In this document: positions 18,696 to 36,060 of the stretch, piece by piece
Position numbering within the stretch: position 1 is the stretch's first letter
Layout: the number at the start of each line of letters is the position of its first letter
Source of the DNA: a virus
Virus record (IMG/VR): IMGVR_UViG_3300028025_004617
Coordinates: 39,959 to 103,958 of that record
Reading direction: 5' to 3' (one strand)
Length of the DNA stretch: 64,000 bases
Notes under the pieces: generated by a model
Databases searched by the model: none
What the model was told of the DNA's origin: nothing
What the model saw: only the letters and a program-made list of their open reading frames with translations
Position numbers and translations under genes: made by a program

Positions 18696-21600
18696 TTAAA
18701 TGATTTCAAAATATACAACATCACCATCTTGTACTTTTAAATCTTTCATTAATTGTTTAGATAGAGCCAATCCGGATTTAACTCCTGTTGGTCCCGCATT
18801 AATTGGTCCTGTTATGTTATTAACGTTAATTTGTCCTGAACCAACTGGTGGTACGATTATTGGAGTTTTTATATCCTTTGGGTTATAAAACTTAGTCGTT
18901 CCTTTAATAATTAAATTTGGTTTAGCAACATCGAAATCAAATTTTGTAGAATAGAAGTATCTTGTTGACCCCGATAAATCTTTCCAAGTAATTGGATTGG
19001 GTTCAATCGTATGTTCAGTTTGTCTCGAAATGATATTCATGGATATTGTTTCTTTTATCTCATAATTTGGTCCACCCATGGTAATAACTTGGGCTCTTAA
19101 ATAATTTTTTCCGTTGAAACTAACTTTTTGAATATACTTCTCTTCGTTGTATCCATTATATGGTACCCCATATTCTGTAACTCCTTGTTCTAATAATATT
19201 TTTTCACCATTTATGGCCTGTTTACTATCTCCCATATCAGATAAGAATGTTTTACCATCACTTGTTGTGTATGTTTGTTCATTCTTTGTTGATCCAGTTG
19301 TTGTAGAATTTTCTTGTTCTTTAGTTTTAGCAATCGCAGTTCTTGTTATCTTGTCGAATAACACTCTATAACTCGATAGGAACGAATCCTTAGGATCAGG
19401 TAATGACGCATAAGGAATTCTCGTACCTTTAAATGTGGTTACTATGTTATTATTTCTAATACTATGTGAAACTTCGGTTATCCAATATGAACCTCTAAAC
19501 ATAGGTACATTTTTTAAATAGAAATACATTGTTGGTTGAATCATAACATTACCCATACATGTTACATCACAGGTATATGACGCTTGTCTGTATATGTCAA
19601 ATAAACTTATGTCTATTTGATTTGCGGCCGCACCGCTTTCAGAACGACCCAAATTCTCAATAACATTAAACGATTCTGTAGTGTTTCTTATGGAAGTTTG
19701 GTCGAGTTGTACACTCTTAAAAATACCTTGATTTTGGTCACCAATACTTACCTCAAACGCAACTACCTTATTAGATTTAGCATAATCTCCTTGATTAAAC
19801 ACCTGTGGTGTTGTTATAACTAATGGACTACCTACTCCACTAAATAAGTTACCACTATCGTTTTTGAATTTATATTTTTCATTAATATCGGCCAACTCTA
19901 AATGTTTAGATGTTGGTCCTGTGTATTGAATAAGAATTTTAGGTGAAGAATCTTGGTAATCAACATCTAAGAATGTTCCAAATAAATTTTCAGCAATTTT
20001 CTTAGATGGTGTTATTCTAGATTTGGTCGATTCGTTTGTTCCGTAGAAATTAACATATGCCGGTAATCCCCTCATATCAAATCCCGTACCTTGTATTAAC
20101 ATTGATATTACACTATATAGATTCGCCTTACTATTTTTTGCGTCTTCTAATGGTAATAATTTTTCAAGTGAGAGATACGCTTGGTCTCCAATATCTTTAT
20201 TTGCTTTATCTAAGAATAGAAATTCTTCCATTAAAGTCCTTTGTCCTAATGAATTACCTGCTACCCATTTATCGTTAAATGATTTAAAGTAATTATATAA
20301 TTCTAATTTTAATGGAATGTCATTATATCCATTTACTATTGTAACCTCATTTTTACTATCTTTAACTGATAATGTGGATAATTTAGGTAATAGTTGTGTG
20401 AAATATTGTCCTAATCTTAATTCAGGTCCTCTCAGTATTTTTGTTTTTATGTAATCTTGAAAATCTCTTTTTGTTGGTGTGTATGAACCACCTTTACTTT
20501 TAACCCATCCTGCAAATATTAAAATCAATGGTCTAAATGTTAATACATTTTCCTCACTTAATTCAATGTTATTAGTTACAAAGAAATTTTTATAACAATC
20601 TGTTGATGGTTCCCTACCTACATACAAATCAATATACATTTTATTAGAACTATATTGTGATGAGTTGTACTCATTGTATTCAAATCTATTTACGTTATCT
20701 ATTTCCGCAAAACCATTCCACACATTTGGTACTATTTCTTTTGGATTACCAATTGTTAGTTTTAATAAATTATCTGTTCCTAATATTTGTTGAGTTACTG
20801 ATTCTAATTTTTTTAGTTGTTTTTCTTTTAGTGTTGTTACAATTGCATTTACATCTGTATTATCGTTATTATCATCTTTATCTATGGTAACTAACGCCTT
20901 TAATAAATCTTGGAATTTATCATATTTTACAGAATGACTTTCAATTGTTTTTGTTTCACCACTAACAATTCCTGTTACGTTATAATCCGGAAATACTTTA
21001 TATGGTATTTCCTCTTCCAATTTTTCCGTTGCAAAATCTAAAAAATACTCTTCAAATTTATCTAAAATTTGTGGACTAAATGTTGCAATTAAATCGTATA
21101 TCTTTCTTTTTTCAGAAGTTACTAATGAATATTTGTCATCCTCGTCTTTATTTAAGTCGGTAAAGTAACTACCAGAATAATCGACCATATCAAAAAATAA
21201 CGTTCCAAAATCATATGATTTGTTATATTCATCATAATCAAAGAATTTTTTACCATCATAATAATCCGTTACTGATTCATTATCATAACACCATAAAACT
21301 TTAAAATTTTTCTGTTCATTACCACTAGCAGTAAGTCCGTTAGTAAAACCATTCTTAGACCCACCTACTGAAGGTAACAATGTAAAATATTTGTCTGAAG
21401 ATACTATTTTTGAGTTGTCTACAAAACTTGTGAAATATAAACCATTATCACCAACAGGTTCTCTAACTACATTTATTGTTTTAGCGGTGTATGCATTATT
21501 AAATGACGCAGTACTACCAGTTGAAAATAGGAAATGTGAGTACCCATTTACAATTTGATGGAATACGGAATCATATAATGGATGTAGACCGATTACATTT

Positions 21601-24473
21601 TGTAATGTGTAATTTACGTTCTCTCCAACATTAAATGTTAAATTATTACCATCGTCAAAAAATGTTTTTCCACTAATTGATGTTGTGGTTGTTCCACTTA
21701 AAAATCCAGATAGTATATCTTTATTTTCTAATATTTTCTTTTTATATCTATGATAAATTGACCCCCATTTGATTATTAAATGATAAGGTACATAATGTGA
21801 TGCACTTACCTCTCTGAATACTGTAGATAATTTTGTTTTACCATAGAATTCATCTTGTAAATCTATAAATGGTAATGAGTTTAATAAAAGATACGCCGAA
21901 CCAGCATACTTTCCGTATGATTGATTACCAAAATCGGATTCTAATTGTTTGTGAAAATATGGCGTATTTAAAATGCTTGCTGAACTATTCGTTCCAATTT
22001 TTATTTTTTCATCAAATAAGTTAGAATACTTACTCGGTGGAACCCAATATGTTGGCGATGATGGTGCAGATATTAGTCCTTCTTTTGTATTAACTTCAAA
22101 TAATTGTTTTAACTCTAAATCGGCTAAATTAAATGATGTTTGATTCAAATAGTTCAAATAAGTGTCTGAATTAAATGGATAAATGTTTAACCTATAAGTT
22201 TCAGAATCGTATGTGTAATTCTTTAAATTTTCTTTTAGTTTATTAAAAACACCATTATTGTCAAAATTCTTATTACCGCTGTAACTTGTTTCAATTGAAA
22301 ATGATTTATTTTCGATTGTTTTTAGGTATGGTGTTGTTGGTAACTTATCTTCAAAATATGGATATCTATCGAATGGTGAAAACGATAATAGATTTTCTGT
22401 TAATGTTGTAATGTTTGACATTGTTTTTAACAATCCAACAACGTCAGGGTCTTCACTAAACATTTTTTGTATATTATCAAATTCTCTATCAGCCAATTCA
22501 TTAATTGTATTTAATGAAAAATCCTCGGATAATGTTGCATATCTACCTCTCTCATAAATTTCATATATGATTGAGGATATCGATTTATTAATATATGGGG
22601 TACCGATTGTTAACTGAAATAATGTGGCTATTTTGTGTAAATCACCATCTGTATTTGAATTATCAAATATAAAATCAATTTTACTAGCGGAACCTTCGTT
22701 ACCTGTTAATGAGTCTTGTCTTTTTGTACCTACCGCTTGATAGTTTTCTAAGAAGTCAATTTCAGGCCACAGAAACTTATCGTATGACCTTAATTTTTGT
22801 TGCAAATCAGGATCACCAGGATAAGCGATTACTTTTTGTTTGTTTGAGGTTTGTTTCTTTACTTCAGGCCAAGGATAAATTGAATCATTATTTTTTGACT
22901 CATCACTAAAACCTTTTAATATTTGTCTCCTTATTGTTGAAACCTCAAATGATTTACTATGTACTTCTTTTAGTAATCTAATGTAAACCTCGGCATTTGC
23001 TAAAATAACCGCAAATATATTACGTATTGTTGGGTCAAACCCAATTCCCTTATCTTTATCTTTAACAATTTCATTCATCTTTCTTTCAACAAGGTCTTGT
23101 AATTTATTTCTTTGTTGAACGAATAATTGTTGCATATCATAGATGTCTTTTAAAACACCTTGAATAGAAACCACATAACCACTTGCAATTAGTTTTACAT
23201 AAGAATCAATTGGTTTTATTTTGTTTGAATAACTAAATGTTTCTTTCTTAAAATCATTCGCCGATTGTTTTAAAAACGTTTCGGTGAATATTTTAGTCTC
23301 TTTTAAATCTAAAGGATAATTTGTTATAATACTTTCTAATGTACCATTAACTTTACTTCCTTTTATTTTAACATCTGTGATAGTTCTGTCCGCCATTCTA
23401 TTATAAATGGCACCATCAACTTCTACTGTTTCCGCACTTAGGTTTCTTTTACTCCAATTTTGAACCGCGGATTCAAACTCTGTTAGTTTTTTTTCAAAAT
23501 CTTTAACACCGACGAATAGTTTCATGTCAACCAATCCACCGAATATTTCTTTTTCTAATATCTTATCTAAACTTCGAGCAATAACGATTAATTCTCTTAA
23601 CGTTTTTGTTGGGAAGTTTTTATCGATTAAACCTTTTTGTTTATATTCATCATAAACAGATTTTAACATTACGTAACCTTTTGAAGATTTTTTAATCTGT
23701 TTTTCTTTTGTTCCCTTTCTCTCGTTGAATTTTGCGGGTAAATCATCTGATTCAACCATATACATATATGGTGCATTTAATATACCATCAAGTGGTATAT
23801 CATTTAAAAACGCATAAGTTGATCCAACAAATGTTGTGGCAATTTCAAAATTACCATTTGATTCATTATATTTTGAACTAAATTTAGTTAAATGTAGTCT
23901 GTATCTAATTGCCTTACCATAATATCCTTTTATTGTTAAATAAAAGATCGGCCAAGGTAAATGAAAGAACGCACCATATGGTGAATTTTGGGGTGATTCA
24001 AAGAGAGTCTTACCTCTAACATCAATAAAGTTAATGTTAATTTGTGGTATAAAGCTTGCACCCTTAATATTAATGTTAATACTATCGATACCAAAAGATT
24101 GTGCAGTTGAGTCATTTTGGTAATTATATTTAGTTCCATCATTGGTTATTCCTTCTTTTACGTTTACAAATTCTTCTGTCCATGCGGTATCAAAGTCTTT
24201 ACCATTTTTACCTTTATTTTGTGTAAAACTTAAAGTTCCTTTTGCAATAGATGATAATGTCCCTTTTGATGTGCTGTCACCAGATGCTGTTAATACACTT
24301 CGTGGAACTAAATCAGCCTCAAGATTAACAAACATAACTAAGTTTTCTTGTTTTATTCCTCTTGGTTCAACTTGGTCACCATTCTGAACACTATTTGGGT
24401 CAACAAAAACTAAGTTGTTTACATCAACTTTTACTAAAATATTTTCACTCTGATTAATTTTGTTATTCCCCAT
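18696..24473 (-). CDS. Giant baseplate hub-like tail protein (1925 aa)
   Basis: Most of this very long protein is not recognisable. The C-terminal quarter is informative. A segment with IDISLFDIYRQASYTCDVTC, GNVMIQPTMYFYLKNVPMF and RGSYWITEVSHSIRNNNIVT has the pattern of gp27/gpD-type hub proteins (a product measured against a reference point, then 'Y.I..V.H.I'). The last 40 residues (GLALSKQLMKDLKVQDGDVV) look like a small double-psi or barrel domain. The N-terminus also contains SFIPQININFIDVRGKTLFE. The gene overlaps gp53 by 11 nt. A hub or spike-carrying central baseplate role is inferred. Confidence 0.65.
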   Translation of the reverse strand: MGNNKINQSENILVKVDVNNLVFVDPNSVQNGDQVEPRGIKQENLVMFVNLEADLVPRSVLTASGDSTSKGTLSSIAKGTLSFTQNKGKNGKDFDTAWTEEFVNVKEGITNDGTKYNYQNDSTAQSFGIDSININIKGASFIPQININFIDVRGKTLFESPQNSPYGAFFHLPWPIFYLTIKGYYGKAIRYRLHLTKFSSKYNESNGNFEIATTFVGSTYAFLNDIPLDGILNAPYMYMVESDDLPAKFNERKGTKEKQIKKSSKGYVMLKSVYDEYKQKGLIDKNFPTKTLRELIVIARSLDKILEKEIFGGLVDMKLFVGVKDFEKKLTEFESAVQNWSKRNLSAETVEVDGAIYNRMADRTITDVKIKGSKVNGTLESIITNYPLDLKETKIFTETFLKQSANDFKKETFSYSNKIKPIDSYVKLIASGYVVSIQGVLKDIYDMQQLFVQQRNKLQDLVERKMNEIVKDKDKGIGFDPTIRNIFAVILANAEVYIRLLKEVHSKSFEVSTIRRQILKGFSDESKNNDSIYPWPEVKKQTSNKQKVIAYPGDPDLQQKLRSYDKFLWPEIDFLENYQAVGTKRQDSLTGNEGSASKIDFIFDNSNTDGDLHKIATLFQLTIGTPYINKSISSIIYEIYERGRYATLSEDFSLNTINELADREFDNIQKMFSEDPDVVGLLKTMSNITTLTENLLSFSPFDRYPYFEDKLPTTPYLKTIENKSFSIETSYSGNKNFDNNGVFNKLKENLKNYTYDSETYRLNIYPFNSDTYLNYLNQTSFNLADLELKQLFEVNTKEGLISAPSSPTYWVPPSKYSNLFDEKIKIGTNSSASILNTPYFHKQLESDFGNQSYGKYAGSAYLLLNSLPFIDLQDEFYGKTKLSTVFREVSASHYVPYHLIIKWGSIYHRYKKKILENKDILSGFLSGTTTTSISGKTFFDDGNNLTFNVGENVNYTLQNVIGLHPLYDSVFHQIVNGYSHFLFSTGSTASFNNAYTAKTINVVREPVGDNGLYFTSFVDNSKIVSSDKYFTLLPSVGGSKNGFTNGLTASGNEQKNFKVLWCYDNESVTDYYDGKKFFDYDEYNKSYDFGTLFFDMVDYSGSYFTDLNKDEDDKYSLVTSEKRKIYDLIATFSPQILDKFEEYFLDFATEKLEEEIPYKVFPDYNVTGIVSGETKTIESHSVKYDKFQDLLKALVTIDKDDNNDNTDVNAIVTTLKEKQLKKLESVTQQILGTDNLLKLTIGNPKEIVPNVWNGFAEIDNVNRFEYNEYNSSQYSSNKMYIDLYVGREPSTDCYKNFFVTNNIELSEENVLTFRPLILIFAGWVKSKGGSYTPTKRDFQDYIKTKILRGPELRLGQYFTQLLPKLSTLSVKDSKNEVTIVNGYNDIPLKLELYNYFKSFNDKWVAGNSLGQRTLMEEFLFLDKANKDIGDQAYLSLEKLLPLEDAKNSKANLYSVISMLIQGTGFDMRGLPAYVNFYGTNESTKSRITPSKKIAENLFGTFLDVDYQDSSPKILIQYTGPTSKHLELADINEKYKFKNDSGNLFSGVGSPLVITTPQVFNQGDYAKSNKVVAFEVSIGDQNQGIFKSVQLDQTSIRNTTESFNVIENLGRSESGAAANQIDISLFDIYRQASYTCDVTCMGNVMIQPTMYFYLKNVPMFRGSYWITEVSHSIRNNNIVTTFKGTRIPYASLPDPKDSFLSSYRVLFDKITRTAIAKTKEQENSTTTGSTKNEQTYTTSDGKTFLSDMGDSKQAINGEKILLEQGVTEYGVPYNGYNEEKYIQKVSFNGKNYLRAQVITMGGPNYEIKETISMNIISRQTEHTIEPNPITWKDLSGSTRYFYSTKFDFDVAKPNLIIKGTTKFYNPKDIKTPIIVPPVGSGQINVNNITGPINAGPTGVKSGLALSKQLMKDLKVQDGDVVYFEII

Positions 24474-24788: not shown

Positions 24789-27700
24789 TTATGTTAATTT
24801 AAAGGTTTCTGTACCATATTTAACTTCCCCTTCATTGAAGACGTTCATTAAACTTTGTTTTATTTCATCAATAACAATGTAATCGGTAACATTAATATTA
24901 TATTCTATTTTACCATTACCCTTTTTAATAGGGAATTTACCCATTCTAAATTTCTTTTCTTTTGGGGTCTCTATTAATTTGTCCACAATCTCACCAATTT
25001 TATCGGATATTTCTTTTGTCGAAATTTCCTCATAAAGTTTAGTTATAGTCTCTTTCTTTCCTTGTAATAATATTGAAATTATCTCTACAAAAATATCGTC
25101 GTTTAATGTGTCGTTAACAAAATCAAAACTAATATCTAAATCTTCATTAAATTCTCCATGTTTATTTTTAAGATAATCAACAATACTTGAATAATGATTG
25201 TAGAACGCCGTACTTGTAAATCCTGACAATGTTGTTGAACTGAATTCAGTTCCATTAATTTTACCATCAAATTCGTTTTTAACTAAAAAATTAACTTTAT
25301 CGAATAATCTTATTACTTTGTTTCTTGACTCTTCTAATTTCTTTAATGAACTACTTTCAGGTATCACACCTATTGTTTCATTAACGATTGATTTTAATGT
25401 TTCTCTTAAATTTTCATTAGACCAATCTATAGATTCACTTGTTATTGCTTTATTGAAACCTAATAACGTGGTAACATCATTATTATTGATATAACTTTCT
25501 AAATCTATTTTAAGTTTTTCACTATAAAAATTTATATCTGCAACATTGTTAGTTGCACCTAATAAAGGTATTATGTCAGTTGTTGTTGTACTTGTATTAA
25601 TTGTTAATCCTGTTACACTTTTATATCTGTTATGGAAGAATATACTTGATATTTTATCCCCATATTTTTTTATAACTTCGTTATATGATGATTGGTATAA
25701 GTTAATGTATGAATCGGTAGTACTAAAAATTGCATCAATAAGTGCGTTATATTCAATTTTAGTATCATTTAATGAACCAATGTACACTCCTTGTGTTACT
25801 TTTGGTCTATTATCTTTATCACCTTCTAACTGAAATTCTGGTTTCTTTTGTAATTCTGCAATAAATTCTTTAGTAAATTTATCCGCAGGTTTACCATCAA
25901 TTAATGTTGCGGTTGATTGTGCTCTTTCATCGTATATCTCAGTATTTGCAAAGAAATTTGATGATAATGCATTTTGTAATTTTTCAACCGGTCTTTCCAA
26001 TCCTTGACCACCTATGAAACTAACTTGTAACGTTACACTAGCAATCATTGGTTGTACACCAATACCTTCAGGATTTAAATCCCAAGTTGAGTCGTCATAC
26101 GTTATGTTGATGTCTCTTATCACAATTTTAGAATGATAAAAATCACCAATTCTTATAACACATATTGGTGGTGGTCCAAAAGAAGTATTTCGTGCATTTA
26201 AATCATTAACATCCGCAATTCCTTTTATAGGTATTGTATTACCAGGTCTTACACATTGTAGTAAGAACGTTAATCTTGAGTTCAAACCTTCGGGTGTTGT
26301 TGAGTGGAAAGCCGGATGAAAATATTTTAACTTCTCTTTTAATGATGTAAACGCTAATGGTGAATCTTCTTCTAATTTTTTAAAGTAGTAACATTCAGAT
26401 AGTGTTTTGGTAATGATTCTTTTCATTACATCAATAGGTGGCTTTGGTGTATATGTTTTTTCCGGTTCACCTGGCTCCTTTGTAATTTTTGGTATTTTAA
26501 TTTTTTGTGTTGATGGTGGTTTTTGTACACTAAGTGTTTTAGCCGAAAACTTAACACTTGTTTGTCTACAATAAAACGCGTTTGGTGTTGTTATCTTTAA
26601 ACCATATTTTGTATTAATGACGGTCTTACAATCTAATCTACCATCAGGATCGACATTTGTTAATCCTTTTGCATTTTCACCTTCTGTAGAAAAATTTATA
26701 ATTAATTTACCTACGTTATTTTTATATCCTAACTTTTCAAAACTAAATGTTAACTTTTGGTCATTTAAACCATCTTTAGCATTCTTTTTAACTTCCTCTT
26801 CTGATGGCCAGTTAAAGTCAGGTATTTTATCCGTATCACCTTTTAATCTAGTAAGAATATCTAATACTAAAGAATGAGCTCTTCTCATTCCTAATAAGAA
26901 ATTATAATCATCATTAGCAACTTCGGACGCACTTGATAGTATTTTAAATTCAGCAAGTTCAATTGTGTTTCCACTTACCGCCTTTTTAAGGTTATCAATT
27001 TTTGTGGTAAATTCTGTATAGTTTGTATTTAATTTTTCAAATCCCGTATTTAACTTATCAAGTTGTAAATTAATAGCTTTGGTGAAATCTGTTATTTTTG
27101 ATTTTTCTAATTTAAAAATTGTCTTTATATCTTGGATTGCGTCTGAACTTGTGTCTCCACTTAATCTTGTAAAATCAGCTAAAGCGTCTGCATTTAAAGA
27201 GGCTTTTTGTGCATAATATGAAGGCTGTATTGTACTATATATTTCTCCTTTTGTTGTGTCCTTTCCATTTTTAGATGGAATATCATTTGGGAAAAATAAC
27301 GCTAATGAAAAAGGTTCCGGTGCTTTTGTTGGTGTCTCTCCCGTTTCTGGTACAACTTCCTCAACTTCTTCTGATGAATATTTGTATTTCATAATGGTGG
27401 ACATTTCTTTCCCCGCATTAAGATATTCATTAATTCTTTTTATATCATCAGTATCTAAGTTAGTGTATTTTCTTACTAAATCATAAAAGTCAATTTCCTC
27501 GCATCCAGCAAAGAATGCGTTAATGTAGTTATCGGCCTCTTCATCTGACATACCTTTGAAATGTTCTCTTACTAATAGATTTAAAATACTTGGGTGGTCA
27601 ACAACAACTTTAAATGATATTGTACCACTTCTTGATGTATTTTGATAAGTGTATATTGGTTCGGGTCTACCTAAAAAGCTATTCTCTTCCCATTTAGCGC

Positions 27701-29492
27701 TATTTTGTTCTGATACTTTTAAATCATATGGTGGGAACCACATCACTCTACCACCATTTGAACCTCTTTCACAAATTGGTAAATCTTGTACGGTGAATCC
27801 TTTTTGTGTGGATGATTTCCAAGCCAAGTTTTCAATTGAAAACATATATTTTTTTGCTTGTCCGTCTTTTATATTTGTTGAATTTTCAAATGATTTTCTA
27901 CCATTTGACATTGGAGCATAGTTTAAGTTCCACACTCTACTACCTCCACCCATTACACTTCCATCAAACTTTCTTACCATGTTTGTTTTTTTCATGGTAT
28001 CTGTATAGTTAAAGTATGGTCTATCTTTTGTCCATACTCTACAATATTCAACACCACTTTCTTCACCAGAAAATTTGTTTGTGTATTTTACTGCGGAACC
28101 TCTTGACATCATTACCTCACCATCTTTAAAAACTCTACTTGTTTGGTCAATTACGTTTGCCACATGAGAACGCATTTCAGAACCATTAGTCGGTAATGTG
28201 TTTAATAATTGTTGTGTTTTTCCTAAAATTGAATCTTCTCTAAAAACATATTTTGTTGATAGACTATCTTGTAAGTTAGTTTGTTCCCTACCACTATATT
28301 CCTTGTTATGTTCTCCTAATTTATTTTTAGAATTTTTACTATACCAAGTTAGTTTACCGCTGATTTGTCCACCTTCAGTTACATTTTTACTTTTATGAAA
28401 TAACTGAGCAGAAATTTCATCGAACATCAATGAAAGATAATAAGTACTTCTTACTTGATTGTCATTAAAATCACCCATAGCAAATCTTACATCGTTCGCT
28501 CTATCGTCACCAATGTAGGCTTGTCCTGCGGGTGCTTCAACCCCTAATATATTTTTTATACCCTGAGCCGCTTTATCTACAAAACTAAACAATTTTGATG
28601 ATTGCTGTGACCTTGCACTTGTTGTGTAGTTCGGTGCATATCTATTAAATGTTAATGAATCAAACAAAGCCTGTTTAGGTCCTTGTCCCATATATTGTAT
28701 TAATAAATCTGAAGGTTTTCTTGATAATTTTGGTCTTCTTTCAATTCCAATTAATGAACCTAACACTCCCGTAACATCTTGTGCAATTTTACCTAATTCG
28801 GTTTTTGCTTCGGGTCTATAATTTATTGGGTTTCTTGGGTCTGATAAATAATCACCCGGTATTTCACTAAATGGTAATTGTGTTCCCGAAACTGTTTGTA
28901 AAAAATCAATACCTTTACCAATAAGAGTACTTGCAACAGTAATCTTATTATTCATTTCAACCAATGGTTCTCTACCTGTTAATATGTTTAATGCGGTCGC
29001 CGTGTTACCATTTAACGCATCTAACAATCTTACCTTACCATTAATCGCTCTATCTGTATTATATGCTATCCTTGTTAATACAGGTCCCCCTTTATCTTCT
29101 CTTATGTATTTTGCTGCAAATTTAAATAATTCAGATTCGGTATCATACGTTTTTGTCGCCATGATACTGATTAAATTATGTTTTTCCGCTGTAAAATATG
29201 GGGAACCACCATTAAAATATAATGATAGGTTACGTGTTCTTGGTAACGTATCGATATTTTCTTTTATAAAAAAATTAGTTGGTTTGTATACGTTTGAATT
29301 AGAAATTTTAATTAAATCATCTTTTCTATTTTTATCAACTGAACCCGGATCCACATTCGATAGATTACTTAATTTTTGATAGTCATAGTTATCTTTAGTA
29401 AACGTTTGTGGACCATTTGGTTTGTTTAACGTTTTAGCTATGATAAAATCCCTAAATTGTTTGGTTGAGTCAAAATTTAAGTAGCTTGGCAT
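24789..29492 (-). CDS. Large baseplate/tail protein (1567 aa)
   Basis: Not recognised as a whole. Around residues 1100-1200 it reads IRIGDFYHSKIVIRDINITY, then DDSTWDLNPEGIGVQPMIAS and VTLQVSFIGG. This resembles the end of T4 gp48/gp54-type baseplate-tube junction proteins ('W.ln..G..P....v.l.f'). The middle has a coiled-coil stretch (about residues 790-850) and a Pro/Lys-rich linker near KEPGEPEKTYTPKPP. The acidic helical C-terminus runs to the gp53 start 2 nt away. Located between tape measure and gp53, it is likely the platform on which tube and tape measure nucleate. The function is an inference from location plus a weak pattern. Confidence 0.6.
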   Translation of the reverse strand: MPSYLNFDSTKQFRDFIIAKTLNKPNGPQTFTKDNYDYQKLSNLSNVDPGSVDKNRKDDLIKISNSNVYKPTNFFIKENIDTLPRTRNLSLYFNGGSPYFTAEKHNLISIMATKTYDTESELFKFAAKYIREDKGGPVLTRIAYNTDRAINGKVRLLDALNGNTATALNILTGREPLVEMNNKITVASTLIGKGIDFLQTVSGTQLPFSEIPGDYLSDPRNPINYRPEAKTELGKIAQDVTGVLGSLIGIERRPKLSRKPSDLLIQYMGQGPKQALFDSLTFNRYAPNYTTSARSQQSSKLFSFVDKAAQGIKNILGVEAPAGQAYIGDDRANDVRFAMGDFNDNQVRSTYYLSLMFDEISAQLFHKSKNVTEGGQISGKLTWYSKNSKNKLGEHNKEYSGREQTNLQDSLSTKYVFREDSILGKTQQLLNTLPTNGSEMRSHVANVIDQTSRVFKDGEVMMSRGSAVKYTNKFSGEESGVEYCRVWTKDRPYFNYTDTMKKTNMVRKFDGSVMGGGSRVWNLNYAPMSNGRKSFENSTNIKDGQAKKYMFSIENLAWKSSTQKGFTVQDLPICERGSNGGRVMWFPPYDLKVSEQNSAKWEENSFLGRPEPIYTYQNTSRSGTISFKVVVDHPSILNLLVREHFKGMSDEEADNYINAFFAGCEEIDFYDLVRKYTNLDTDDIKRINEYLNAGKEMSTIMKYKYSSEEVEEVVPETGETPTKAPEPFSLALFFPNDIPSKNGKDTTKGEIYSTIQPSYYAQKASLNADALADFTRLSGDTSSDAIQDIKTIFKLEKSKITDFTKAINLQLDKLNTGFEKLNTNYTEFTTKIDNLKKAVSGNTIELAEFKILSSASEVANDDYNFLLGMRRAHSLVLDILTRLKGDTDKIPDFNWPSEEEVKKNAKDGLNDQKLTFSFEKLGYKNNVGKLIINFSTEGENAKGLTNVDPDGRLDCKTVINTKYGLKITTPNAFYCRQTSVKFSAKTLSVQKPPSTQKIKIPKITKEPGEPEKTYTPKPPIDVMKRIITKTLSECYYFKKLEEDSPLAFTSLKEKLKYFHPAFHSTTPEGLNSRLTFLLQCVRPGNTIPIKGIADVNDLNARNTSFGPPPICVIRIGDFYHSKIVIRDINITYDDSTWDLNPEGIGVQPMIASVTLQVSFIGGQGLERPVEKLQNALSSNFFANTEIYDERAQSTATLIDGKPADKFTKEFIAELQKKPEFQLEGDKDNRPKVTQGVYIGSLNDTKIEYNALIDAIFSTTDSYINLYQSSYNEVIKKYGDKISSIFFHNRYKSVTGLTINTSTTTTDIIPLLGATNNVADINFYSEKLKIDLESYINNNDVTTLLGFNKAITSESIDWSNENLRETLKSIVNETIGVIPESSSLKKLEESRNKVIRLFDKVNFLVKNEFDGKINGTEFSSTTLSGFTSTAFYNHYSSIVDYLKNKHGEFNEDLDISFDFVNDTLNDDIFVEIISILLQGKKETITKLYEEISTKEISDKIGEIVDKLIETPKEKKFRMGKFPIKKGNGKIEYNINVTDYIVIDEIKQSLMNVFNEGEVKYGTETFKLT

Positions 29493-29527: not shown

Positions 29528-31402
29528 TTATCTTTTAGCGGTTGATGGTGTAGTATACGATTGGGTATCTACGGTATGGAAATCGTTATAGATACTTGCG
29601 TTCTTACCTACTTCTCTCATCCAACCATCAACTAAAGTGTCTCCACCTTTGAATACATATTCGTTTGTTACTTTGACATTTTTATCCATTTGAGTAGACG
29701 CTTCTTTTTGTTTTTTAGCTTCTTCTTCCGCCATTTTTTTAGCATCTTCTTGGGTTACCGCAGCTTTTGGTGTTTCAACTTTACCTGTTTGTTTTTTATC
29801 AGGTGTAACTATACCTTTTATTTCATTATTGATTAAAGTTGCTGCTTTTGGTAATGTTTCTTTTGTTACATCTGCGAAATTTTTAAAATCAATACCCAAT
29901 TTTTTGGCCATCTCTTGAACTTCTCTTGTTCCAGTTAATGCAACTGATTTAACTAAAAAGGATACATCACGTCTAATATTTTCAACGTCACTAGCTTGGT
30001 TTCTAACTATTTCATCAGATGTTAATTTTTTAAATTCGTCTCTATATTGTAATAATAATTCAGCTTGGTTCTTATCTAAATCCTCTAATGCAACTTCATT
30101 TGCCCCAAAACGTTTTTTCAATTCTTCAGATTGTAATTCAATGGTCATTTTACCATTTTTCATCTGAGACATGTTAGTTAAGAATTCCTTATCGGCATCT
30201 TCAATTCTTAAACCAGTTAACATTTCTTTTGCACTTAATCTTTCTTGTGCCGCAATTGCCGTCTTTGTAAGTTCCTTATAGTCCATACCTAAAGACGCAG
30301 CCATCTCTCTCACTTTTCTTAGGTTAACACCCGTAACTTCAAATCTTCCTTGTTCTTGGTTGTATGTTGCTAAACTACTTGCAGCATTAATAATTGAATC
30401 TTGTAATCCCTCAATATTATTTGTTGCCATGTACATTAATTTAAGTGGGTCATTGAAATCTCCAATAGCACCACCTAATACTTGTAAGTTTGCAGATAAT
30501 TCTAATGCACTTTCTGGACTGAATACCTTTTCAGCCACTTGTGAAACCGCGTCCATACTTAATCTAAATTCAATAGATTTTTGGACCATTCTAGTTAAAC
30601 CCTCAATTCCTTTTTGGAATCCGTATTCGTTTAACTTACCTATATTTGTTTGTAAATCTTTTGCAACTCTTTGTGAGTTTAGACCTAATGTTAATGAACT
30701 TTTTCCAGCCTTTTCTACCGCGTCAAATGTACCTTGAGCACCTATACCAACTTTTTCAAAATCAGGTAACATGTTCGTAAGACTCTCCATTGAACCTAGA
30801 TAAGCTTCTCCAACTTCTGCCGCCTTTTCAAATGATTGTTGATTAATTAAATTGAATCTTCCTGATTTATCAACTAATCCCTGAGCAACGTCGGCTAATG
30901 TTTCAAATGAGACACCTAATTGAGCTAATCTTGGTCCTGCATTTGAAATCTCTTCTCTAAAATCTTTTGATAGTTTACCAGTTAAACCGGTTTTAGTATT
31001 GATGTCTTCTAATAACTTTCTTTGGTTATTATATTCATCTGTCATTTGACTTAAACCTGCCTTGAATACATTTTGAGCTATTTGGTCGGGTCCTAATAAT
31101 TTCCCATCAGCACCTGTTGCCATTGCCATGGCACTTGTTGAATTAACGGACTGACTAATATCTTTGTAATATCCCCCACTTTCTTGTCCTTTTAAAATAC
31201 CTGTAGCTGCCTCAATAAATGTTTTAGAACCTGATGTAGTTGGTTTGTTTGAGTTATAGTTTTCTTTCTCTTTCCAAGCCCTTTCATATTCAGTTAAATC
31301 AATTTGTTCATTGTAACTTTTTGCAGAATCTTTTACGGCTCTTTCGTATGCGGCTCTGTCTTTTGATTGACTAGCTAAAGTTTGATATCTTATTTGTCCC
31401 AT
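29528..31402 (-). CDS. Tail tape-measure-like protein
   Basis: The 624-aa protein is almost entirely helical with Ala/Leu/Glu-rich stretches. Examples are ISNAGPRLAQLGVSFETLAD, TFDAVEKAGKSSLTLGLNSQ and LQVLGGAIGDFNDPLKLMYM, which resemble the repeated helical blocks of phage tape-measure proteins. A Lys/Glu-rich segment (KKMAEEEAKKQKEAST) precedes the C-terminus. The gene order tube, chaperone with frameshift extension, this gene is the classic order around tape measures. If it follows the usual length rule (roughly 1.5 angstrom per residue), the tail would be near 90-95 nm, but processing or helical content could change this. Starts 2 nt after a CTATTTATAT element. Confidence 0.7.
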   Translation of the reverse strand: MGQIRYQTLASQSKDRAAYERAVKDSAKSYNEQIDLTEYERAWKEKENYNSNKPTTSGSKTFIEAATGILKGQESGGYYKDISQSVNSTSAMAMATGADGKLLGPDQIAQNVFKAGLSQMTDEYNNQRKLLEDINTKTGLTGKLSKDFREEISNAGPRLAQLGVSFETLADVAQGLVDKSGRFNLINQQSFEKAAEVGEAYLGSMESLTNMLPDFEKVGIGAQGTFDAVEKAGKSSLTLGLNSQRVAKDLQTNIGKLNEYGFQKGIEGLTRMVQKSIEFRLSMDAVSQVAEKVFSPESALELSANLQVLGGAIGDFNDPLKLMYMATNNIEGLQDSIINAASSLATYNQEQGRFEVTGVNLRKVREMAASLGMDYKELTKTAIAAQERLSAKEMLTGLRIEDADKEFLTNMSQMKNGKMTIELQSEELKKRFGANEVALEDLDKNQAELLLQYRDEFKKLTSDEIVRNQASDVENIRRDVSFLVKSVALTGTREVQEMAKKLGIDFKNFADVTKETLPKAATLINNEIKGIVTPDKKQTGKVETPKAAVTQEDAKKMAEEEAKKQKEASTQMDKNVKVTNEYVFKGGDTLVDGWMREVGKNASIYNDFHTVDTQSYTTPSTAKR

Positions 31403-31415: not shown

Positions 31416-31565
31416 TTATTGTGTGTTTTCCAACTCCATTATATAACCAATATAGTATCGTCTAATATAGACAGGCATAGTTAAAATGTCTCCATATGAG
31501 AAACCTTTCCTGATTAGGTAGTGAATTTCCGATAATTGATTTTTCTTATACTCCGTAGAAAGGGC
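31416..31565 (-). CDS. +1-frame C-terminal extension of the tail assembly chaperone
   Basis: This region is a 49-codon stop-free frame, +1 relative to the 249-aa gene, entered at coding GAC TTT TTT CGC (31564-31575). If the Phe tRNA slips from TTT to TTC, translation continues as ALSTEYKKNQLSEIHYLIRK and then GFSYGDILTMPVYIRRYYIG, ending ENTQ with a TAA at 31416-31418. It has no ATG near its beginning (the first ATG is 30 codons in), no stop, and a protein-like composition. The 'gfsy.dil.mp...r' pattern looks like the C-terminus of T4-type baseplate/chaperone proteins. The fused product would be 292 aa. Production in vivo is inferred. Confidence 0.6.
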   Translation of the reverse strand, partial: ALSTEYKKNQLSEIHYLIRKGFSYGDILTMPVYIRRYYIGYIMELENTQ

Positions 31566-32295
31566 GAAAAAAGTCAACCCCAAACCCAATTCTAAATTGG
31601 ATTTCTTCTCCTGATGGGGTTTTTGCTGTTTGTGTTAGGTCAATTCCTGGCTTATTATCGGATACATATTTTCTAAAATCTTGTGAATCCTTAATTGGCA
31701 TGTTCTCAATGAAATTTCTTGTGTTCATTGGGTCATTAACTCCAGCCACGGATTTAATCATACCTTCAAGTTGTTTTGTGATAATTGGAGCAATTCCATT
31801 ACCATTCCAACTCTTTGCAATTTCTTTTATGTCGTTTTCTTGTTTTTGTGTTAAAAACTTAAATGTTACATCTACTTTGGATTTATTCATAAAATACGAA
31901 TACTCTCCGTTAGAATCTGCTACTAATGTAAATGGTTTAAAATCTAAACTACTTAAATCAATTTCAACTTCAAAGTCTTCGTTTGTTTTTGGGTCAGTTA
32001 ATGTAACTTTATATTCTGAACCAAATGCGGTATTTCTTAAAAATATTAAGATTGCCTCTTTATCCTCCTCAACTAAATCTTCAGTTTGGATATCCTTATC
32101 TAATACCTTTCTTTTTAATAGTTCATTAACTATTGCATTTGTTTGTATTAAATTTGGGGACGCTAATATATTTTCATCCGCGGCGGTTAGGTAAGCAACT
32201 CTTACTGATTTCTTACCATTTGAATAGTGGATACCTCTACTTGGTAATTCCACAACATCATATGCGATTCTAGGGTCAATTCTTAATTCTTCCAT
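31546..32295 (-). CDS. Tail assembly chaperone (T4 gp26-type family)
   Basis: The 249-aa protein begins with DVVELPSRGIHYSNGKKSVR and VAYLTAADENILASPN. This is the 'LPSrG..Y......v.v..LTa.dE..l' signature of T4-like proteins annotated as baseplate hub/tail assembly proteins. EDKEAILIFLRNTAFGSEYK follows. It lies between tube (32397-32885) and tape measure, the position of G/GT-type chaperones that hold the tape measure during tail assembly. The 0-frame ends six codons after a TTTTTTC run with RPFYGV, while the +1 frame stays open for 49 codons (separate entry). A terminator separates it from the tube gene. Confidence 0.75.
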   Translation of the reverse strand: MEELRIDPRIAYDVVELPSRGIHYSNGKKSVRVAYLTAADENILASPNLIQTNAIVNELLKRKVLDKDIQTEDLVEEDKEAILIFLRNTAFGSEYKVTLTDPKTNEDFEVEIDLSSLDFKPFTLVADSNGEYSYFMNKSKVDVTFKFLTQKQENDIKEIAKSWNGNGIAPIITKQLEGMIKSVAGVNDPMNTRNFIENMPIKDSQDFRKYVSDNKPGIDLTQTAKTPSGEEIQFRIGFGVDFFRPFYGV

Positions 32296-32396: not shown

Positions 32397-32885
32397 TTAG
32401 AATACAAGTATACATCTATCCATACGTAAAGTACATTGGATAGTTGCAATTTCATCTCTTGAATAGTCTAATTCACCAAAGTTAATGTCTTGAATAAATG
32501 TTCCTTGAAGAATCCATTTTTCAACAACAACACCTGTTGGGTCTAACATTTCAAGTTCGATGTCTTTTTTATAACCGGCAGCATATCCCATACGACCAGT
32601 AACTGACTCAGCGTGTAAACGGAACCATTCCATTAACGCTTGTGACGCTGATGGTCCAATTGGGTCTTTAAAAGTTACCCTCATGGTATCCCAACTAAAT
32701 TTACCCGCAACATATGTTGAAGTATTTAAAAAAGGAATTTCAGTCGCGTTGATTTTTGCGGATGGTCTAGCCGCTGATGTTACATACCATTCATTGATAC
32801 CCAAAGAAGATGGGAATCTTACAATAAATCGGTTCTGTCTTTTCGGTTCGTAAGGAACCGGCATTTTCATTAGTAAATCTGCCAT
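32397..32885 (-). CDS. 19: Tail tube protein gp19
   Basis: This 162-aa protein matches the length of T4 gp19 and has its pattern: EPKRQNRFIVRFPSSLGINE, WYVTSAARPSAKINATEIPF, WDTMRVTFKDPIGPSASQAL, then LEMLDPTGVVVEKWILQGTF. Hexamers of gp19 stack to form the inner tube through which DNA passes. The gene follows the sheath gene, as in T4 (18-19 order), but it is separated by about 320 nt holding terminators and a structured region. It has its own promoter-like element and terminator, consistent with high, separate expression. Confidence 0.92.
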   Translation of the reverse strand: MADLLMKMPVPYEPKRQNRFIVRFPSSLGINEWYVTSAARPSAKINATEIPFLNTSTYVAGKFSWDTMRVTFKDPIGPSASQALMEWFRLHAESVTGRMGYAAGYKKDIELEMLDPTGVVVEKWILQGTFIQDINFGELDYSRDEIATIQCTLRMDRCILVF

Positions 32886-33207: not shown

Positions 33208-36060
33208 TTAGATATTCTCGAATGAAGCTCCTGTTGGAGTAATTACGAATTCCAAATCAATAAATTCAAGAGAACGAGTAGGTTTAACGTAAATTTTACC
33301 TCTCAAAGTGTTTGCGTCAATGTCTTCGACATCACTTGAAACACTTACTTTAAATTCATAAAGACCTCTTTCTTTCTTAATTGATTCTAAAATTGGGTTA
33401 ACCAATCTTAAGAACTCTTGTCTTACTTGTTCGTCATTTTGTTCGAACAATAATCTTACCGCAACTGCAGAAATTAATTTTCTTGCTCTCAATAACAATC
33501 TTCTTACGTTGATTCTATCAAGTGCAGATTCTCTAACCTGTAACGTTTTGTTACCCCAAATAATTGTACCTGTATCAGAGAATGTTGCGATTGGGTTAAT
33601 TCTATTTTTGTAAAGTTCATCTCTCTCGTCAAGAGTTAACTTCTTTTTAGCTTTAATTGCATTTACCAAACCTCTTGAATAACCCGCAACTGCGAACCAA
33701 GGATAAGATACATTATCAGTTAACGCAATGTTCTTCAATACCTCACCTGTTGGTGGGATGTAAAGTTGAGTTGCGTTATCTGTGTCTCTTACTTGAATCC
33801 AAGGCCAGTATGTTGCTGAATAGTTAGAGTCGATTCCCAAATCATCAAGGTGACCTGTAACGGTTGCAGCATCATCAACATTTGGTGCTGATATGATGTA
33901 AAGTGAATCTGCTCTTTCGTTTTCTATAATATCAATTGCTTGACTTGTTAAAGATGAGTGATCGTAGAAGTTGATACCTGCAGTGGCAAATACGTTAATG
34001 TCAATTGCCTCTGGATTTGCATATGTTTGAATTCCTTCTAAATATGCATAGTAATCAGAGTTTCCTAAATCTTTACTGAATACACCATTGTTATCGGTAT
34101 TACCTAAATTATATGTTGTTTTACCATAAATAAATTGGTCACCAAGAGTTCTTGTCTCTCTGTATATGTCCCAACCATCAAAACCACCACAAACCGCTAA
34201 TGTAAATTTACGGAAGTTTATGTTAGTTAATTTATTGTCATTACCAGATTGACCTTCTAAATCATACGATGTTGTTTGATATGTTGTTCCTGTGATTGAT
34301 GAAGCGTTTGTTGACAAGTGGAAACCAAATGTACTACTAGACGCCGCATTTCCCTTATACTTAAACAAATCACTATCAAATTTAAAACCATTTTGAGATG
34401 ATAAACCTAAAGAAACTTTCTTAACTTTATCTCCATTAGATAGAACTTGTGAACCATCTGATTCGTAATAAACCACATCTCCACCATCAAAAAATTCTGT
34501 TTTATAAAGAACACTACCCAATTTATTACCTAAAGTTAAATCGGAAGTGAATCCTTTGAAACCTGCAGGGAATGCGTCCATTGGTGCATTACTTGCCATG
34601 TTTAACATAATGAATTTTGAACGTAACTCATATTCACCATCAGATGTACCAACTTTTCTTGCAACATAACCTGGAACGTCAGGATTCATTGAACATCTTG
34701 AAAATTTCTCCAATATAACTTGATTTTCGTCAGTATCGTTGAAATCACGAACTATGATGTCAAATTCAGCGGTATCTAAATTAATGTTTTGAATTGTAAC
34801 CTTAACTTCAGTATTTGCAGCATCTCCATCAGATATGGTTAATACTGAGAATAAATCAGCAACATTACCACCACGAACTTCAGATACAATTGTTGGTGAT
34901 GATGGAGTATCCCATGATTGAGCGAAATTATTACTTTCATTATTTGATACCACGTCTAAACTTAAACCTCTTACGTGTCCATGTCTAAATGCGGATAATA
35001 ATAAGTTAGAATATACCTCATTAACAAATAATGGATAATTTTCTTTTACTTTATCAAAAACTTCTGTACCTAAAACTTTATTTATGTATTTTGTTGATGA
35101 GATGTCTAATGAACAATTGAATGTTTTTGTTCCTCCTGTAATGTCTGTAACGTTTAAAGCGAATTCAGCCATCGGATTAATAGTAACACCACTAACATCG
35201 GTTAATGTTACTGCAGTTGTTCCTGTTACTTGTAACACCAAAGATTGTGATGCGTTATATTCACCTCTCGATCTTAAAGACGCAACAACTACATCACTAT
35301 AATCTGTGTTAAGAGACGCATTGTATTTGTATCTTGTTACGGTAAATGAAGATGAACTTGTAGAATAAACAAAAAGATAAGAGTAAACACCATCAATTGT
35401 TGAATCGGTTGACCCCGTCTTTGTAAAGAACGCATTATACCAGTTTTTGTTAGCATTTTCACCAATTGGTGATAAAAGTTTTGTACCTGTTAAACCTGCA
35501 GTATCTGAAGTTGGTACGTTACCAATAACGAACCAATCGTTATTTGCGTATGAACCACCACTCTTGCCGATTTTATTAATGATATAATCAGTTACTTTTG
35601 AACCATTAGTTGCAGTTTTACCTGAAAGTTCACCATAAATTGTTGAACCTGTGATAGTTGCTGTTGTTGCTGATAATGTTATTCCTGTTGTTGAACCACT
35701 TAAAGATCCAAGATTAACCCCACCTAAAGTTTTAATACTATAGGTTTTTCCTGGTTTATACCCCGTTTTACCAAGTATTCTTGTTACGAATAATTGATTA
35801 GACTCTTGTAAGTATGATTTAGCCATATATGCTAATTCGTATTTAGGATTGTTTGCACCGTCTTTCTCAGGTGAAGTTGGTCCAAAATACGTTTTAAATT
35901 CGTCGAAGTCCCCAACTAAGATAGGTTCAAAAGCGGGACCTTTTAAAGTCTCACCCACTAAACCTAAAGTTGTTACCCCAACACTTTGTGCTACGAATGT
36001 TAGATCCTTCTCAGATGTGTACACACCCGGAGAAACGAATACTCTGTTTGAATTTGCCAT
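33208..36060 (-). CDS. 18: Tail sheath protein gp18
   Basis: The 950-aa contractile sheath subunit starts RVFVSPGVYTSEKDLTFVAQ and has the family's C-terminal core: FSDTGTIIWGNKTLQVRESA, LDRINVRRLLLRARKLISAV and FEQNDEQVRQEFLRLVNPIL, ending with a beta segment. T4 gp18 is 659 aa, so this protein has about 290 extra residues. They lie mostly between residues 100 and 500 in Thr/Ser/Gly-rich domains that would project from the sheath surface. It is preceded by element ATATTTATAG, about 37 nt from the ATG, and followed by tandem terminators, which fits a major late protein. Confidence 0.92.
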   Translation of the reverse strand: MANSNRVFVSPGVYTSEKDLTFVAQSVGVTTLGLVGETLKGPAFEPILVGDFDEFKTYFGPTSPEKDGANNPKYELAYMAKSYLQESNQLFVTRILGKTGYKPGKTYSIKTLGGVNLGSLSGSTTGITLSATTATITGSTIYGELSGKTATNGSKVTDYIINKIGKSGGSYANNDWFVIGNVPTSDTAGLTGTKLLSPIGENANKNWYNAFFTKTGSTDSTIDGVYSYLFVYSTSSSSFTVTRYKYNASLNTDYSDVVVASLRSRGEYNASQSLVLQVTGTTAVTLTDVSGVTINPMAEFALNVTDITGGTKTFNCSLDISSTKYINKVLGTEVFDKVKENYPLFVNEVYSNLLLSAFRHGHVRGLSLDVVSNNESNNFAQSWDTPSSPTIVSEVRGGNVADLFSVLTISDGDAANTEVKVTIQNINLDTAEFDIIVRDFNDTDENQVILEKFSRCSMNPDVPGYVARKVGTSDGEYELRSKFIMLNMASNAPMDAFPAGFKGFTSDLTLGNKLGSVLYKTEFFDGGDVVYYESDGSQVLSNGDKVKKVSLGLSSQNGFKFDSDLFKYKGNAASSSTFGFHLSTNASSITGTTYQTTSYDLEGQSGNDNKLTNINFRKFTLAVCGGFDGWDIYRETRTLGDQFIYGKTTYNLGNTDNNGVFSKDLGNSDYYAYLEGIQTYANPEAIDINVFATAGINFYDHSSLTSQAIDIIENERADSLYIISAPNVDDAATVTGHLDDLGIDSNYSATYWPWIQVRDTDNATQLYIPPTGEVLKNIALTDNVSYPWFAVAGYSRGLVNAIKAKKKLTLDERDELYKNRINPIATFSDTGTIIWGNKTLQVRESALDRINVRRLLLRARKLISAVAVRLLFEQNDEQVRQEFLRLVNPILESIKKERGLYEFKVSVSSDVEDIDANTLRGKIYVKPTRSLEFIDLEFVITPTGASFENI

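Follow-up and report, generated by a model that had tools for sequence, protein, structure and literature searches.

A conserved UUU_CGN site and a covarying upstream stem-loop point to +1 frameshifting in a T4 gp26/gp51-type tail-assembly chaperone gene of an uncultivated virus

The 64,000-nucleotide window analysed here, part of a 104-kb IMG/VR virus contig, contains a gene whose product we identify as a tail-assembly chaperone of the T4 gp26/gp51 type. Very likely (probability about 0.9), a +1 frameshift at UUU_CGC in this gene makes a second, longer form of the protein. Most ribosomes would end at the zero-frame stop (31548-31546), yielding a 249-aa short form (TAC-N). In a fraction of ribosomes the P-site tRNA-Phe would slip from UUU to UUC and continue into an extension (TAC-C), yielding a 292-aa long form. 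An earlier note on this DNA had proposed the same TTT-to-TTC slippage, and with the conserved site and frames described below it is the best-supported reading. The short form would be the counterpart of T4 gp26 and the long form that of gp51.

The 249-aa gene ends ...GVD, with the codons GAC TTT TTT CGC CCT TTC TAC GGA GTA TAA. Past the slip site the +1 frame reads ALSTEYKKNQLSEIHYLIRKGFSYGDILTMPVYIRRYYIGYIMELENTQ and stays open for 49 codons to a TAA at 31418-31416; the next ATG (31402) lies 13 nt further on, and within the extension an in-frame ATG first comes at codon 30. All of this agrees with the earlier note, down to the lack of an ATG in the first 29 codons. A +1 shift at the slip site predicts the junction peptide IGFGVDFFALSTEYK.

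The gene is preceded by a tail tube gene, assigned by PHROG match, and followed by a 624-aa gene, a tape-measure candidate by position (Table 1). The latter gives no family match in PHROGs or Pfam and resembles the tape measure annotated in phage immuto weakly (E 0.01); the earlier note had called it the tape measure, an identity that is positional. At 950 aa, the tail sheath is roughly double the PHROG sheath profile (496) in length and apparently contains a large insertion. Downstream of the tail genes lie two very large ORFs on the same strand (24789-29492 and 18696-24473; 1567 and 1925 aa) with no convincing PHROG family match. The DNA polymerase has remote matches, with about 25% identity, in Salinibacter and Anabaena/Nostoc phages.

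Table 1 Features of the chaperone locus and its surroundings, in window coordinates
Feature	Position	Strand	Remarks
Short form (TAC-N), gp26/gp51-like tail-assembly chaperone	31546..32295	-	249 codons + stop; PF12322, phrog_150
Predicted long-form extension (TAC-C), +1 frame	31416..31565	-	49 codons + TAA; long form 292 aa
Putative slip site UUU_CGC	31564..31569	-	P-site TTT 31569-31567, A-site CGC 31566-31564
5' arm of upstream stem, ACCCCA	31615..31620	-	pairs with 31577-31582
Conserved unpaired TCAGGAGAAGA, Shine-Dalgarno-like AGGAG	31604..31614	-	between outer and apical stems
Apical hairpin	31583..31603	-	predicted in window; sequence and register vary among relatives
3' arm of upstream stem, TGGGGT	31577..31582	-	ends 7 nt before P-site TTT
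Tail tube gene (gp19-like), upstream of chaperone gene	32397..32885	-	phrog_4542, E 1.1e-28
624-aa gene downstream of chaperone gene, tape-measure candidate by position	29528..31402	-	ORF call
Tail sheath	33208..36060	-	950 aa

The tail-assembly chaperone identity, already suggested by the earlier note, follows from likeness to T4 gp26 and gp51, from the fold and from the position. The 249-aa protein matches PF12322 (T4_baseplate) with 37.1 bits (cut-off 24.5, E 3.5e-9) and phrog_150 with E 8.4e-12; databases annotate the gene family as 'baseplate hub'. T4 gp26 (208 aa) and gp51 (249 aa) both belong to PF12322, and gp51 carries an additional C-terminal stretch. The phrog_150 match covers positions 16-233 with the short form (46.1 bits) and 16-264 with the long form (51.2 bits), thereby reaching 264/282. 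In relative L079, the part of the fused form that matches phrog_634, the gp51 family, coincides exactly with the extension (E 1.3e-4). Taken by itself, the extension of the window gives no significant match in PHROGs or Pfam; in hhalign against T4 gp51 alone the correct C-terminal stretch was aligned, with a probability that was not significant. An AlphaFold model, which covers the short form, has a pLDDT of 88.7, and its ordered part ends at the slip site. Foldseek matches this model to predicted baseplate hub assembly proteins of T4-like phages; a fold search of the PDB with it gave no significant match, and the HK97 tail assembly chaperone 2ob9 appeared at a probability of 0.33. The dN/dS ratio is about 0.36 in the extension and 0.30 in TAC-N, values from partly saturated pairs that indicate purifying selection and nothing finer.

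By analogy with the lambda scheme and with chaperones reported from T4-like phages, the short and long forms would act together as a tape-measure chaperone, presumably by binding the tape measure and the tail tube. In the lambda scheme the two forms arise in a fixed ratio, the long one binding the tail tube and the short one the tape measure.

The same +1 extension after the same site is present in 35 other IMG/VR contigs at 62-100% identity. The survey set, drawn from three further scans, comprised 279 loci reaching the stop; removal of duplicates left 218 distinct C-termini: 87 of FFR type, 120 of F-F/L-W type and 11 others. In all 207 FFR- or FxW-type C-termini the +1 frame stays open from the site to beyond the stop (three of these open frames reach the contig end), and 217 of the 218 relatives have it open past the stop. 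Because it is kept in the 35 contigs and in 207/207 C-termini, the extension is beyond chance; conservation of slip site and extension among homologues, the check proposed in the earlier note, came out in favour of the frameshift. It is also difficult to reconcile with one alternative, an error of sequencing or assembly in which the true run has five T and the frames are simply joined. A homopolymer in a metagenome contig makes such an error conceivable, but every independent contig checked has the same frames, as do deposited isolate genomes with a homologous gene. We regard this explanation as refuted.

The same design is shared by the named phages Mel-JY01, immuto, LIS04, SP-15, SagM-GXN1, QdP_Psa3 and RM378; the QdP_Psa3 protein lies outside PF12322. 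In QdP_Psa3 (L044, 3120-3143) the sequence TTC TTT CCC TAA C offers both UUU_C and CCC_U as possible +1 sites before the stop. The exception among the 218 is RAS14 (L043), in which the extension is open in the -1 frame, as it also is in the uncultured LR756511 (L288); judged from these two sequences, the direction of frameshifting has switched within the family. A canonical -1 shift at X_XXY_YYZ would require a -1-frame extension; in the window and its clade the extension lies in the +1 frame. The expectation that a +1 shift would be unusual in a T4-like phage does not hold, as nearly all of the distant T4-like relatives sampled are +1.

Comparison within the window clade shows which part of the site is conserved. 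All sequences (87/87) have TTT as their P-site codon, and the A-site codon is CGT in 36, CGC in 31, CGG in 17 and CGA in 3, never AGA or AGG (n = 87). The preceding codon is TTT in 83 and TTC in 4. As a few relatives (L016, L017, L028 and L059) read TTC TTT CGC, the conserved unit is UUU_CGN and not the run of six T; of the TTTTTTC site suggested in the earlier note, the location is conserved and the T6 is not invariant. An equally invariant control Arg in the same gene (alignment column 94) is encoded by AGA in 78, AGG in 7, CGT in 3 and CGA in 1 of 89 sequences. On a tree from which the 3' end was left out, parsimony counts 25 codon changes at the A-site Arg, all at the third base and always within CGN, and none at the P-site Phe, against 7-14 in four control Phe columns. 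Among the 2,776 Arg codons in window-clade loci, 67 are CGC or CGG, and 49 of these 67 follow TTT. In the window, CGC accounts for 4 of 19,210 codons, and the slip site is the sole in-frame TTT-CGY.

The residue encoded after the slip varies freely (A, V, G or D), so CGN is not kept for its sake. Since replacing CGA-C and CGG-C by AGA-C and AGG-C would alter neither the zero-frame residue nor the post-slip one, the element kept is the C after UUU. This conserved C is best explained by re-pairing at UUU_C, with the tRNA-Phe shifting to UUC; the same reasoning is applied to influenza PA-X (PMC3498833) and amalgaviruses (PMC5052127). Two places in the window clade show low synonymous diversity: a patch about 40-70 nt upstream and the slip region. 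The region after the slip is read in both frames, and dual reading alone slows its change. Where the overlap is narrowest, just 3 codons separate the opening of the +1 frame from the site, and the zero frame ends 3-6 codons beyond the A site, so that the shift must fall within a few codons. Comparison shows the frames, the conserved site and the upstream stem described below; the slip itself and its efficiency are inferred.

Two other routes to the same frame would use the T run. The first is a -2 frameshift, a mechanism known from phage Mu, which would place one extra Phe at the junction (predicted peptide IGFGVDFFFALSTEYK). The T6 run of most members would permit it, but the TTC TTT CGC members would then re-pair with a mismatch in the middle position, and nothing would call for conserving the base after UUU; we consider it quite improbable. 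The second is slippage of RNA polymerase, by which a sub-population of mRNA would encode the long form. It could draw on T6 in the window and on T7 in 89 of 120 sequences of a sister clade, yet members with TTC TTT CGC, TTT CTT TGG or TTT CTA TGG keep the extension without a long run, which leaves this route a very slim chance.

In that sister clade the slip region reads TTT-TTT-TGG in 89, TTT-CTT-TGG in 28 and TTT-CTA-TGG in 3 of the 120 sequences, each followed by CCT. A UUU_Y tetranucleotide is always present, and the exact slip codon is ambiguous.

The extension might alternatively be a separate gene with an internal start at TTG or another codon. The window has an in-frame TTG at 31589 with AGGAG 18 nt upstream of it; however, 53 of 213 sequences have no ATG, GTG or TTG between the last upstream +1 stop and 8 codons past the slip site, and an internal start leaves the invariant TTT_CGN unexplained. 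We find this hardly credible and retain +1 frameshifting at UUU_CGN. Database records give the relatives a single gene, with or without a short hypothetical gene; the short genes annotated in the +1 extension region of immuto (L039, 3327-3437) and Mel-JY01 (L038, 3228-3464) probably do not stand alone as genes.

The upstream patch of low diversity contains [AG]CC CC[AG] TCA GGA GA, of which the CCCC pairs with the GGGG of TTT GGG GTN just before the slip site. Both elements are present in 82 of 89 sequences, both are absent in 6, and a single sequence is discordant. The resulting stem, absent from the earlier note's account, has the consensus ACCCCR...YGGGGU with compensatory changes. In 34 diverse sequences 94.1% of cells are paired (62.3% in the best slid control) and 12 are compensatory, and 0 of 500 shuffles scored as high, either for cells paired or for covariation; over 82 sequences pairing is 96.5%. 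The stem was derived from the same related sequences that were counted, and the counts are not independent events. RNAalifold recovers the same six pairs, and in L076 and L078 one C-G pair is replaced by A-U with the stem kept. The slip site is kept without a clean stem in L077, L079 and L081.

The GGG codon of the 3' arm occurs in 84/89 sequences, compared with 0-8% at other conserved Gly columns, and the C-ending Ala and Thr codons in the stem represent about 15% of usage for those residues. In the loop, GGAGA is present in 83/89 and AGGAG in 68/89; the Gly GGA codon of GGAGA shows 3 parsimony changes, against 16-29 in four control Gly columns. The fold of the window sequence alone is not unusually stable (z -1.17), so the case for the stem rests on comparison. 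For the apical stem the consensus register is weakly supported, and no single register is well supported. An Rfam search returned a sub-threshold match to RAGATH-14 alone (21.7 bits against 149.1), which we take as chance. The TGG sister clade yielded no consensus stem ahead of its slip site; purine-rich AGGAG or GGAGGGG codons often lie there, about 25-35 nt upstream of the site (L125-L284).

It is plausible that the stem-loop stimulates the +1 slip; it could also have another role. With the GGAGA that it carries, the stem-loop may aid the forward movement either by refolding behind the ribosome or by presenting a Shine-Dalgarno-like sequence. We tentatively raise the possibility, which we hold to be rather doubtful, of a new kind of +1 stimulator, in which the Shine-Dalgarno-like GGAGA, about 37 nt upstream, would be brought near the trailing edge of the ribosome, and refolding, anti-Shine-Dalgarno pairing or both would push it forward on UUU_CGN. 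If this were true, phages, haloviruses and eukaryotic RNA viruses would have converged on UUU_CGN because of how tRNA-Phe generally behaves on UUU ahead of CGN.

Short and long chaperone forms made by frameshifting are already known. Frameshifting of tail-assembly chaperones in several T4-like groups was reportedly described by Vladimirov, Gautam and Davidson in 2022; a later paper (PMC12846349) cites that study for poly-T -1 signals. The lambda chaperones gpG and gpGT arise by -1 slippage, a scheme conserved except in T4 (PMC5009743). Comparison shows that the window gene resembles lambda G/GT in its overlapping frames after the tail tube gene and its predicted C-terminally extended second form, and in preceding a tape-measure candidate; in contrast to the -1 slippage of lambda, its shift would be +1 at UUU_CGN. 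T4 itself has the same family (PF12322/phrog_150), with gp26 as the short and gp51 as the long chaperone, and the same C-terminal extension of the second form, but encodes the two as separate genes on opposite strands instead of one frameshifted gene.

The closest precedent for the site is in HF1-group haloviruses, for whose tail chaperone a +1 shift at TTT-CGC was proposed in 2020 (PMC7230728). This is the same motif in the same kind of gene, and on re-examination of halovirus HF2 we find AAG TTT CGC AGA TAG. The halovirus chaperones, however, belong to unrelated protein families (phrog_14268 and phrog_12163) in an archaeal host, their slip site lies two codons before the stop, and the available part of that paper describes no stem-loop. 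UUU_CGN +1 sites with UUU_C at the P site are also reported for influenza A PA-X (PMC3498833) and plant amalgaviruses (PMC5052127), and amalgaviruses, like the window clade, use all four CGN codons at the A site. These are eukaryotic RNA viruses with unrelated proteins, and a conserved 5' stem-loop is not described in the accessible portions of the two papers. In Listeria phages PSA, A118 and A500, +1 frameshifting at CCC_UGA or CCC_UCC likewise occurs in structural genes, those for capsid and major tail proteins and not chaperones (PMC5009743). As far as the literature examined shows, three points are new: how widely UUU_CGN occurs in the gp26 family, the Arg control from within the gene, and the covarying 5' stem-loop.

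The family provides a large natural data set in which a +1 slip site is kept while the third base of the A-site codon changes freely; it is relevant to the question, posed for influenza and plant viruses, of why UUU_CGN slips. The covarying 5' stem-loop is open to test by an ordinary reporter assay. The short genes annotated downstream of chaperones of this sort, such as immuto35A_232, are probably not genes in their own right, and the predicted frameshift would link the two separate chaperone genes of T4 to a single frameshifted gene.
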